From positions 1 to 8,647 of the forward strand of contig JACUUP010000060.1 of the NCBI GenBank assembly GCA_014859225.1: a stretch of 8,647 bases of DNA, in the 5' to 3' direction. The translations under genes were made by a program, and so were the position numbers. Source of the DNA: Candidatus Aerophobota bacterium. GTDB taxonomy: Bacteria > Aerophobota > Aerophobia > Aerophobales > B3-G15. Under the pieces are notes generated by a model. That model was not told the origin of the DNA, did no database searches, and saw only the letters and a list, made by a program, of their open reading frames with translations. The number at the start of each line of letters is the position of its first letter. Position 1 is the stretch's first letter. Below, piece by piece: positions 4,036-8,417 of this stretch.

Positions 4036-4136
4036 AGGGGTCAGGTCTTGCAATATCACATATCTACTCAGTTTCAATCTAATACATGAACTACATAAAT
4101 GCCAAAATGTTATATTGCAAGACCTGACCCCTCTAA
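4027..4136 (-). terminator. Possible terminator of the hyp-rex-rnf transcript formed by the inverted repeat
   Basis: Read on the minus strand, the long stem made by the repeat arms is followed directly by TTTTT (complement of 4027-4031). This is the layout of an intrinsic terminator just after rnfG. The 45-nt loop is longer than usual, so efficiency is uncertain. On the plus strand no T-run follows the stem. Confidence 0.35.
4032..4136. repeat. 105-bp inverted-repeat element (MITE/REPIN-like) between convergent genes
   Basis: Left arm 4032-4061 and right arm 4107-4136 are reverse complements over 30 bp, with one mismatch (4057 against 4111); the outer 25 bp are perfect. The arms begin TTAGAGGGGTCAGGTCTTG and enclose a 45-nt AT-rich centre with no frame of note. 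The left arm carries the clpB stop codon (TAG, 4033-4035). The right arm encodes the last eight residues (181-188, LEGSGLAI) and the stop of RnfG. Ends of the GGGGTCAGGTCTTG kind are, from memory, seen beside IS200-like or REP-associated (Y1) transposases in environmental genomes. There is no transposase here, so it would be non-autonomous. Target-site duplication is not evident. Confidence 0.75.
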
Positions 4137-4676
4137 AAGTTCTCTTACCTTGTTTATAGTTGAGTTCACTATACTTACAACTGTTTCTGAGGAAATAGTA
4201 GCGCCGGTTATAGCCTGAATTTGGTTAGGAGCAACAGGTTCTCTCTTAACAAGTTCTACATAAGGCGTGATATGTAACCCATGGAACTGCTGACGAAATC
4301 CAGGCTCATCTATCTTCTGGCCAAGCCCGGGAGTTTCTACAGATTCAAGCACCTGGATAGCGAATGTCTTTTTAAATTCAGGCTCAACTCCAATCATAAG
4401 CTTTATTATGCCCTGATATCCAGGAGCTTCTCCCACGAATGCATAACCTACAATATTTCCTGCAGAATCAATCCCCTGATATATCTTTTTTTCATCTTTA
4501 ATGATAGTTTCATAGCGCTCAGCTCCGGGTAAGACTTGAAAAATCGCTTCTTCCAAAGCTTTTTGCCGATTAGCCTCTATTGCAGGATAAGTATAGGTAT
4601 AAACTCCTACCAGGGCACCGCTGGAGATAACTCCAATTAAGGTTAAAGTAAGAATCATATGATGAGATTTTTTCAC
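4110..4676 (-). CDS. rnfG: RnfG-type electron transport complex subunit G, covalent FMN protein
   Basis: A 188-residue protein with one N-terminal membrane segment (about residues 7-28) and an FMN-binding domain expected outside the cytoplasmic membrane. It carries the conserved ETPGLG (114-119) and the flavinylation motif ITGATISS, with Thr160 the likely FMN attachment site through a phosphoester bond. In Rnf complexes this subunit relays electrons between ferredoxin and NAD+ in an ion-pumping route. Flavin attachment needs an ApbE transferase, not seen here. The GTG at 4676 is chosen because GGAGG (complement of 4687-4691) lies 10 nt upstream. An ATG at codon 7 would cut into the membrane segment. 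The gene starts 3 nt after the rnfD stop, so translation is probably coupled. The last eight codons lie in the inverted repeat, so the original C-terminus was probably replaced; the FMN motif is untouched. NqrC is the alternative family, but it is usually longer. Confidence 0.9.
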   Translation of the reverse strand: MKKSHHMILTLTLIGVISSGALVGVYTYTYPAIEANRQKALEEAIFQVLPGAERYETIIKDEKKIYQGIDSAGNIVGYAFVGEAPGYQGIIKLMIGVEPEFKKTFAIQVLESVETPGLGQKIDEPGFRQQFHGLHITPYVELVKREPVAPNQIQAITGATISSETVVSIVNSTINKVRELLEGSGLAI

Positions 4677-4679
4677 TTT

Positions 4680-5642
4680 TCATCCACCTCCCAATACTCT
4701 TGATTTTATATATCTGTTTAAAATTGGAGTAACCGCATTCATAAAGAGAATGGAAAACATTACCCCTTCTGGATAACCTCCCCACAACCTTATAACGACA
4801 ACCAGAACTCCCGCTCCCACGGCAAATATTATTCTTCCTTTTTTGGAGACCGGTGTAGTAACAGGGTCGGTAGCCATAAAAAAAGCTCCTAAGATAAGTC
4901 CCCCTGCAAGAAGATGAAATAAAGGACTTCCATAGTTAGGGTTAAAGAGGAAGGTAATGCCAGTAAAAACGGCAGCTGTAGCAAGATAAAAAACAGGGAT
5001 TCTCCAATCTATACATCTTTTAACAAAAAGATAAACTGCTCCAATTAAAAGGGCAAATGTAGATGTTTCACCCAGGGAACCTGATACATTTCCCCAAAAA
5101 AGGCTGTATATAGAGGTTAGCTGAGATTCAAATTTCATAAGTCCAAGTGGCGTAGCACCTGTTACAGCATCCAGAGTGAAAGGCAATGCCCAGGTAGTCA
5201 TAAGTACAGGAAAAGTAGCCATCAGGAAAGCTCTTCCTATTAAAGCTGGATTAAATATATTGTAACCCAGACCTCCAAATATCTGTTTTCCAAAAATTAC
5301 GGCAAATACAGCCCCCATAGCTGCAGCCCACAGAGGAAGATTGGGAGGAAGAACTAAAGCCAGAAGAATACCAGTTAAAAGAGCGCTGGATTCTTTGGGC
5401 AAAGCTTTACGCCGCAATTTTAAGAAAGCATACTCAGAAACCACACTAAAAAAAGCACAGGTTAAAATAAGCTCAACCGCTCTTAAGCGAAAAAAATAAA
5501 TACTGAAACCCATAGCCGGTAAAAGAGCAATAATTAAATCCCGCATCAAACGAGAAACCGCTAATCTGTCCTTTATATGAGGAGAGACGGAAAGAAAAAA
5601 TATTTTTTTCTCCTGCTCAGTTTCTACCTTTTGTTTTCTCAT
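4680..5642 (-). CDS. rnfD: RnfD-type electron transport complex subunit D, membrane flavoprotein
   Basis: A 320-residue polytopic membrane protein of the RnfD/NqrB family with several hydrophobic helices (for example about 36-51, 57-72, 87-118 and 210-310). The motif LDAVTGATPLG (158-167) holds the covalent FMN site at about Thr164. Other family signatures are FGGLGYNIFNPALIGRAFL (122-140), ATDPVTTP, and GGYPEGVMFSILFMNAVTP near the end. The length suits RnfD better than NqrB, which is over 400 residues. RnfD is a core ion-translocating subunit that passes electrons across the membrane with RnfG. The ATG at 5642 overlaps the rex stop by 4 bp (ATGA), so translation is coupled to Rex. Normal operons run rnfC-D-G-E-A-B; here rex lies upstream and only rnfG follows. 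Whether the protein acts in a full Rnf complex encoded elsewhere or in a smaller two-protein conduit cannot be told. Confidence 0.93.
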   Translation of the reverse strand: MRKQKVETEQEKKIFFLSVSPHIKDRLAVSRLMRDLIIALLPAMGFSIYFFRLRAVELILTCAFFSVVSEYAFLKLRRKALPKESSALLTGILLALVLPPNLPLWAAAMGAVFAVIFGKQIFGGLGYNIFNPALIGRAFLMATFPVLMTTWALPFTLDAVTGATPLGLMKFESQLTSIYSLFWGNVSGSLGETSTFALLIGAVYLFVKRCIDWRIPVFYLATAAVFTGITFLFNPNYGSPLFHLLAGGLILGAFFMATDPVTTPVSKKGRIIFAVGAGVLVVVIRLWGGYPEGVMFSILFMNAVTPILNRYIKSRVLGGG

Positions 5643-6289
5643 GTTCTACCCTTTGCCTTTCTGTGTTTAGCTTCTTTTGCTAAAAAATAAGACAGAGCCT
5701 CAAGTTCCATGGACAAATCCACATTCTTTAGCTTTATCTTTTCAGGAATCTTTAAATGAACAGGGGCGAAATTTAAAATACCCCTCACACCCCCTTCTAT
5801 CATTTTATCTACCACGCTCTGAGCCACGTCTGCTGGAGTTGTCAGTATCCCTATCTTTACCTCATATTCAAGCAAGATATCAGTTATCTTCTCCACAGGT
5901 TCAATCGTTATCCCTTCTACTTTCTTGCCTATCTTTTTAGGGTCATTATCAAAAACAGCTATAATTTTAAATTCCTCTCTTTTAAATCCAGGATAAGCAA
6001 GAAGAGCTGTGCCCAGTTTACCCGCTCCCACCAGAGCCAATCTCCACTCCTTATCAACTGCAAGAATATGTCTGATTTCCTGTTTTAACTTTCCAATATT
6101 ATATCCCTGCCCGGGTATCCCAAACTCTCCGAAATAAGCAAGGTCTTTTCTAACCTGAGCCGCCGTAGTCCCAACTAATCTTGCCAATCCCTGCGAGGAA
6201 AGAATGCCCTCATCTGTAAATTTTTTCAAAGCTCTAAGGTAAATAGAAAGCCGCTGAATTGTAATTTCTGGCACCTTAAATCCTGGCAC
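5639..6289 (-). CDS. rex: Redox-sensing transcriptional repressor Rex
   Basis: A 216-residue homodimeric repressor that leaves DNA when the NADH/NAD+ ratio rises. The N-terminal winged helix (1-80) has the recognition-helix signature AAQVRKDLAYFGEFGIPGQGY (43-63). The C-terminal Rossmann domain has the dinucleotide loop VGAGKLG (87-93), with the acidic strand end IIAVFDND after it. The last helix, SMELEALSYFLAKE, is the domain-swapped C-terminal helix of the family. The start is GTG at 6289: AAAGGAG lies 6 nt upstream (GGAG is the complement of 6296-6299) and the N-terminus VPEITIQRL is typical. It lies 21 nt after hypE and overlaps rnfD by 4 bp, so it is embedded in the redox operon. Rex usually controls fermentation and hydrogenase genes, so it may control its own operon. 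A weak Rex-like site is at 1199-1216; the operon promoter lies outside the window. Confidence 0.97.
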   Translation of the reverse strand: MPGFKVPEITIQRLSIYLRALKKFTDEGILSSQGLARLVGTTAAQVRKDLAYFGEFGIPGQGYNIGKLKQEIRHILAVDKEWRLALVGAGKLGTALLAYPGFKREEFKIIAVFDNDPKKIGKKVEGITIEPVEKITDILLEYEVKIGILTTPADVAQSVVDKMIEGGVRGILNFAPVHLKIPEKIKLKNVDLSMELEALSYFLAKEAKHRKAKGRT

Positions 6290-7327: not shown

Positions 7328-8417
7328 ATTTGCCTGCAAAGCGATAATAAATATTACAGGCGCCTTCAATAGAAACCATACAGGGACCAGAGGGATTTGA
7401 AGGATTACAAAAATTCCCAAATAAGCTGCATTCCTCAGGCTCAATTAAACCCCTCAGCACTTCACCGCACCTGCAACCTTCCATCTCCCTGGATGAGATA
7501 ATCTCAACAGGAAAACGAAGCTGAGCATCATAAAAAGCATAATTTTCAGCTAAACTAAGACCACTATCCTCAATCTCTCCTATACCTCTCCACTCGGAAC
7601 TGTTCAAATTAAATACTTTTGCCATAAGCTCCTTAGCCTTTAGATTACCCTGTGGCGTAACTACCCTCGTATATTCATTCTCCACTTTTGCCTCACCGTG
7701 ACAAATCTGAGAGAGGAGAAGATATATTGCCTGAAGAATATCCACAGGCTCAAAACCTGCCACCACACAGGGAATGTTATAATCTCTGGCTATAAATTCA
7801 TAAGCTTTGCTCCCGATAATACTGCTCACATGGCCGGGGCAAAGAAAACCATCTATCTTAACTTCATCCGCTTCAACAAGAGCTTTCATTGCCGGTGGAA
7901 TGAGCTTGTGCCCGCAAAGAACCATAAAGTTTTTGATATTTTGCTGACGAGCCAAAGATATTGAAGCTGCCACTGTAGGAGCGGTAGTTTCAAAACCAAT
8001 TCCCAAAAAAACAACCCTTTCTTCTGGAAAAGATGCAGCCAATTTTAAAGCATCCATAGAGGAGTAGACTACCTTTACCTTTCCTCCCTTGGATTTTTCC
8101 TCACTTAAACTACCATCAGAGCCAGGAACTTTCATCATATCCCCAAAGGTTGCTATTAAAAAACCTTTTCTTGCATAGGCACAGGCTGTATCTATATATA
8201 GATTGGGAGTAACACATACCGGACATCCAGGACCCGATAAGAGTTTCACGCTAAGAGGAATCAGCTGCCTTATTCCAAACTTAAGAATAGCCATGGCATG
8301 GGTTCCACATACCTCCATAAGCTTTACCTTTCTTCCCACATCCTGAGCTATTCTTTCTATTTTACGGCTGATATGCTCAACCAGTTTCTTTTCTCTAAAC
8401 TCAGAAATATATTTCAT
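7320..8417 (-). CDS. hypD: Hydrogenase maturation factor HypD, iron-sulfur scaffold
   Basis: With HypC, this 365-residue protein is the scaffold on which the Fe(CN)2CO unit of [NiFe]-hydrogenases is assembled. Conserved elements appear in order: EVCGTHAM with Cys37, GPGCPVC with Cys65 and Cys68, GFETTAPTVA, CPGHVS, and GFEPVDIL. The C-terminal region is rich in cysteines (315, 317, 330, 337, 346, 354; for example EGCRCGEVLRG and GPCMVSIEGAC), four of which would hold the [4Fe-4S] cluster. The family's key cysteines are all present. The ATG at 8417 gives an N-terminus of normal length, 10 nt after the hypC stop. No strong Shine-Dalgarno is seen, so translation may depend on coupling to hypC. 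The hypE start overlaps its 3' end. The gene implies that a [NiFe]-hydrogenase is encoded elsewhere in the genome. Confidence 0.98.
   Translation of the reverse strand: MKYISEFREKKLVEHISRKIERIAQDVGRKVKLMEVCGTHAMAILKFGIRQLIPLSVKLLSGPGCPVCVTPNLYIDTACAYARKGFLIATFGDMMKVPGSDGSLSEEKSKGGKVKVVYSSMDALKLAASFPEERVVFLGIGFETTAPTVAASISLARQQNIKNFMVLCGHKLIPPAMKALVEADEVKIDGFLCPGHVSSIIGSKAYEFIARDYNIPCVVAGFEPVDILQAIYLLLSQICHGEAKVENEYTRVVTPQGNLKAKELMAKVFNLNSSEWRGIGEIEDSGLSLAENYAFYDAQLRFPVEIISSREMEGCRCGEVLRGLIEPEECSLFGNFCNPSNPSGPCMVSIEGACNIYYRFAGKYD

Follow-up and report, generated by a model that had tools for sequence, protein, structure and literature searches.

Genes for a complete Rnf complex lie scattered at conserved sites across most of the Aerophobota

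In bacteria, the rnf genes nearly always form one operon. The Rnf complexes of Acetobacterium woodii, Clostridium tetanomorphum and the Thermotoga type (rnfCDGEAB) share with the complex described here the same six subunits, FMN motifs in RnfD and RnfG, a long RnfB, and ApbE. The difference lies in the gene order: relative to canonical rnfCDGEAB, the genes occupy five loci in place of one operon, and rnfDG has rex and hyp genes upstream of it. A precedent for such a split comes from the Chlamydiae, whose nqr operon occurs in three fragments (PMC4014512); there, likewise, a homologous ion-pumping complex is encoded in separate pieces, although it is Nqr and not Rnf, belongs to another phylum, and is divided into three pieces as against four or five. 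In Clostridium ljungdahlii, rnf expression during autotrophic growth requires rseC, a gene located upstream of rnfC (PMC9124969). An rseC gene adjoins rnf here too, but at the rnfE piece only and in two genomes; by analogy with the acetogen, its product may regulate rnf. The literature that we searched contained no description of a dispersed rnf operon; its coverage was incomplete, with most subscription papers outside it.

The canonical neighborhood is close to universal among the loci that we examined outside the phylum. We collected 79 RnfD loci, the nearest relatives from a one-genome-per-species collection, a sample skewed to sequences resembling our RnfD and no census. rnfC lies directly upstream of rnfD in 66 of the 67 loci with enough upstream sequence, rnfE or rnfA lies downstream in 71 of the 72 with enough downstream sequence, and all 60 loci assessable on both sides have rnfC and/or rnfE/A neighboring rnfD.

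The rex-rnfDG locus and the remaining subunits

The window that we analyzed is an entire 8.6-kb contig (C158) from a genome of 1.81 Mb in 273 contigs, 91% complete. Its minus strand carries hypC-D-E-rex-rnfD-rnfG, all in one direction and with names backed by family models (Table 1); rex overlaps rnfD by 4 bp, 3 bp separate rnfD from rnfG, and clpB converges on rnfG, with 74 bp between the two gene ends. On gene order, overlap, intact FMN motifs and convergence with clpB, our coordinates and family models agree with the initial annotation of this DNA.

Table 1. Positions of the features discussed. C, contig of the window's genome (G000) unless another genome is named; L, locus.
Feature	Position	Strand	Description
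hypC	C158:8428-8637	-	69 aa; PF01455 2.1e-25
hypD	C158:7320-8417	-	TIGR00075 480 bits
hypE	C158:6311-7327	-	[NiFe]-hydrogenase maturation; TIGR02124 459 bits; start at ~7327, whereas the listed ORF begins at 7444 (TIGR02124 match starts at residue 47 of that longer ORF)
rex	C158:5639-6289	-	216 aa; redox-sensing (NADH/NAD+) repressor; NF003993 260.7 bits (cut-off 217), Rex equivalog
rnfD	C158:4680-5642	-	320 aa; membrane flavoprotein subunit; TGATPL attachment motif
rnfG	C158:4110-4676	-	188 aa; FMN-binding subunit; TGATIS attachment motif
Palindromic repeat element	C158:4024-4144	.	38-nt arms, 89% complementary, around GGGGTCAGGTCTTGCAATAT; between clpB and rnfG
clpB	C158:1453-4035	+	Converging neighbor, outside the system; Pfam ClpB domains
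rnfE	C155:594-1211		PF02508; flanked by rseC and smpB
rnfA	C80:1182-1760		PF02508; flanked by pyrG and an HU gene
rnfC	C133:5970-7280		558 bits; flanked by a thiF-like gene and argD
rnfB	C121:8222-9031		Model score over cut-off; flanked by moeA and the 582-aa transposase-like ORF
582-aa ORF	L095:9274-11022 (G000:C121)		Directly upstream of rnfB; no Pfam hit
ATP synthase A-B-D	L334:3869-7711 (G000:C223)		A/V-type; behind tig-clpP-clpX
Hydrogenase, MetV-like, MetF-like	L335:6030-10058 (G000:C131)		[NiFe]/[NiFeSe]-type hydrogenase
Fused RnfC-like gene, related gene, metF-like gene	L220:6140-9652; L219; L156		RnfC2-MetV-MetF type; fused gene found in G004, G014 and G013

Both flavoprotein subunits clear the rnf models and score under the cut-offs of the NqrB/NqrC-type models, which argues against assignment to Na+-NQR. 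RnfD scores 339 bits with TIGR01946 (cut-off 207; PF03116 NQR2_RnfD_RnfE 1.6e-114), and RnfG passes TIGR01947 narrowly (103.9 bits, cut-off 102; PF04205 FMN_bind 2.8e-14). Their best solved homologues are the corresponding chains of one structure, 7zc6_D for RnfD (5.7e-82) and 7zc6_G, the RnfG of C. tetanomorphum, for RnfG (4.3e-17), and alignment to these chains shows the flavin-attachment threonine motifs of both to be intact.

rnfC, rnfE, rnfA and rnfB are absent from the window, and the initial annotation described D and G as alone. That holds for the locus and fails for the genome, where each of the four occurs in one copy on a further contig, internal to it and with unrelated genes on both sides (rnfA lies 1.2 kb and rnfB 2 kb from a contig end). 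Nor do the four sit together in a second locus, an outcome that had been named as grounds for giving up the stand-alone reading; they are scattered instead. rnfD is single-copy, the genome holds exactly two PF02508 genes, RnfE and RnfA, and the one-operon arrangement that is typical of Rnf, and not required for membership, does not occur in it. All six subunits have open reading frames, a namesake in 7zc6 or 9eri as best solved homologue, and conserved cofactor residues: RnfA and RnfE each keep the two cysteines of the membrane Fe-S site when aligned to the 9eri chains, RnfB is of the long, multi-cluster form with an FeS domain and Fer4 clusters, and RnfC has RnfC_N, the FMN/NADH-binding part and two 4Fe-4S sites. 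ApbE is the flavin transferase that attaches the flavins; its gene is partial here, at a contig start, and whole in most relatives. All six rnf genes are single-copy and intact, and, rnfDG apart, no two of them are linked on a contig.

Two further elements lie beside rnf genes in this genome. The palindromic element next to rnfG alters or replaces the last residues of RnfG; it is missing at the equivalent place in G011, and more copies occur on contigs C133, C16, C191 and C93 of the window's genome. The 582-aa ORF upstream of rnfB occupies the position of rnfA in relatives and, by eye, resembles a transposase.

A shared scattering and its history

Is this arrangement peculiar to one fragmented genome? 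Among 17 genomes of Aerophobota, 15 bear Rnf, and in 12 of these, from five families, it is dispersed at orthologous sites. One of the 17, G013, matches QMPZ01000050.1 ('Candidatus Aerophobetes bacterium') with 100% identity over 9.3 kb, which makes this phylum assignment very probable. rnfA sits behind an accD-ispG-pyrG block, accompanied by rnfB in every dispersed genome except the window's; this separation of rnfA from rnfB makes five pieces here, as against four in most relatives. rnfE precedes smpB (smpB-dapB) in all nine genomes with a whole rnfE, with an RseC_MucC gene immediately upstream of it in the window's genome and G011; rnfC is solitary, with argD adjoining in 6 of 10; and rnfD and rnfG stay together in 11 of 11. 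The order rex-rnfD-rnfG is found in six of the nine assessable dispersed-Rnf genomes, the window's included, five of the six also having the hyp link, and because it recurs in this way the grouping is not due to chance. The complete six-subunit set is present in 8 of the 12 dispersed genomes, counting the window's own, and the absence of one or more subunits from the other four (69-92% complete) is probably due to genome incompleteness.

We rejected the idea that the scattering reflects a loss of operons in general, since rpoB-rpoC, hypCDE, accD-ispG-pyrG and an acetyl-CoA-pathway gene block are still clustered. The A/V-type ATP synthase appears to be split too, a counterexample to the otherwise clustered operons: its A-B-D genes have no other ATP synthase subunits adjacent, and the arrangement is the same in relatives, those with an intact rnf operon included.

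In a tree of A+C+D+E (55 rows, 40 from outside the phylum), all 12 dispersed sets fall into a single clade (100 SH-aLRT), and G009 and G010, with their single-operon Rnf, are sister to it. The species tree (rpoB, rpoC, pyrG, ispG, accD) instead puts G010 with G016 and the family of the window's genome and, less firmly (82/96), G009 with G001-G006; constraining the Rnf tree to these groupings gives trees that are rejected (p-AU 8e-5 and 4e-41). In the concatenated trees, G009 pairs firmly with G010, contrary to the species tree. The dispersed clade itself is weaker (88/91) in a phylum-only Rnf tree rooted on the very long G013 branch, and, taken singly, E and G give trees that nest the G009/G010 pair within it. 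accD, ispG and pyrG, directly ahead of the rnf operon in G010, track the species tree.

Ancient duplication followed by differential loss is an alternative history. The simplest reading of the trees is that the operon was broken up once, in the ancestor of most of the phylum, and the conflict of the single-operon Rnf with the species tree suggests that an operon later took the place of the scattered set, both in G010 and in the genus to which G009 belongs. Recombination at the G010 site is possible, because the operon there occupies the rnfAB position. The operon of G013 is far more divergent and probably of separate origin; it, too, lies near pyrG, and the contigs that carry it (C50 and C6) overlap within rnfG.

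What the dispersed genes encode

We regard it as very probable that rnfDG belongs to a complete Rnf of six subunits, as one fragment of an operon that came apart in an ancestor of most of the phylum. A split Rnf operon was the second option of the initial annotation, which had it right and underestimated how wide the split was. Since that disruption the pieces have kept to orthologous sites, and the six proteins, made at separate sites, would most parsimoniously assemble into a normal Rnf. Electrons would pass from ferredoxin to RnfB, through the Fe-S and flavin centers of A/E, D and G, and by way of RnfC to NAD+, or in reverse, and this flow would pump Na+ or H+. Given that the genome has hydrogenases and a gene block resembling the acetyl-CoA pathway, the probable role of Rnf is to balance ferredoxin against NADH while making or consuming an ion gradient. 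For deep-sediment Aerophobota, the Wood-Ljungdahl pathway with hydrogen oxidation has been inferred (PMC12766754, PMC13335318).

Co-transcription of rex with rnfDG may also let the NADH/NAD+ ratio influence the rnfDG piece, and gene order makes Rex control of rnfDG plausible. This regulatory step is the weak part of the scheme, because the search for a Rex operator gave no convincing site at the rnf pieces: a scan of 53 rnf-bearing loci for TTGTKAAnnnnTTMACAA, allowing up to two mismatches, gave scattered matches, none common to the rnf pieces, and one two-mismatch site 16 bp ahead of rex in G011 only.

Two other gene neighborhoods were noted in these genomes. In the window's genome, a [NiFe]/[NiFeSe]-type hydrogenase is directly followed by MetV- and MetF-like genes, which suggests that it is tied to methylenetetrahydrofolate reductase. 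Three relatives carry a second RnfC-like gene as a fusion with the C-terminal domain of methylenetetrahydrofolate reductase; a related gene and a metF-like gene come after it.

Could RnfD and RnfG instead form a reduced, stand-alone flavin conduit with ties to hydrogenase and to NADH sensing, with the other subunits serving elsewhere? This was the leading suggestion of the initial annotation, and the recurrent company of rex and hyp, the inseparability of D and G, and the presence in this genome of two large subunits of [NiFe]-hydrogenase along with one that is NuoD-like would all suit it. However, the same genome encodes every other subunit, intact and in single copy, leaving no second set for a normal Rnf, and the usual Rnf sequence features are kept. 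Across the phylum, rnfDG has neither rex nor hyp beside it in G005, G014 and G016 and has rex without hyp in G006, and no [NiFe]-hydrogenase match was obtained in G005, G006 or G016. With three rnfDG-bearing relatives lacking such a match, no obligatory link to hydrogen is supported, and the hyp genes beside rnfDG are explained by the hydrogenases of the genome. We therefore consider a separate conduit very unlikely.

Still less probable is that the pieces are decaying remnants of a pump on its way out, a reading to which the recent additional split of rnfA from rnfB, the transposase-like ORF and the altered RnfG C-terminus in the window's genome lend some color; six open frames, with strong matches to both the family models and the solved subunits, speak against it, as does the persistence of the set across five families. 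We hold it to be extremely improbable that faulty assembly or binning produced the scattering. The genome is indeed fragmented, and rnfA and rnfB lie near contig ends, but the same pieces have identical neighbors in 12 species genomes, on contigs of up to 70 kb (in G003), and this shared synteny rules out misassembly. Mis-binning is unlikely as well, since A, C, D, E and G, each in a tree of its own, consistently group the copy of the window's genome with its family members G011 and G012, and the G+C of the contigs is 40-41.5% throughout.

The dispersed rnf genes are a real, conserved gene-order variant of a known complex, and no new electron conduit. We speculate that the stable scattering could itself be functional, separate transcription units setting Rnf sub-assemblies at different levels and Rex NADH sensing making D-G a limiting or partly independent module, though we think this unlikely. 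An intact operon is often what annotation relies on to infer Rnf, so that a genome of this kind can be misread as holding a partial complex. Moreover, most of a phylum here encodes a membrane pump of six subunits at four or five separate places, a natural test of how far such complexes need operon clustering for their assembly, and the single-operon lineages, which appear to have replaced the scattered set, offer paired comparisons.
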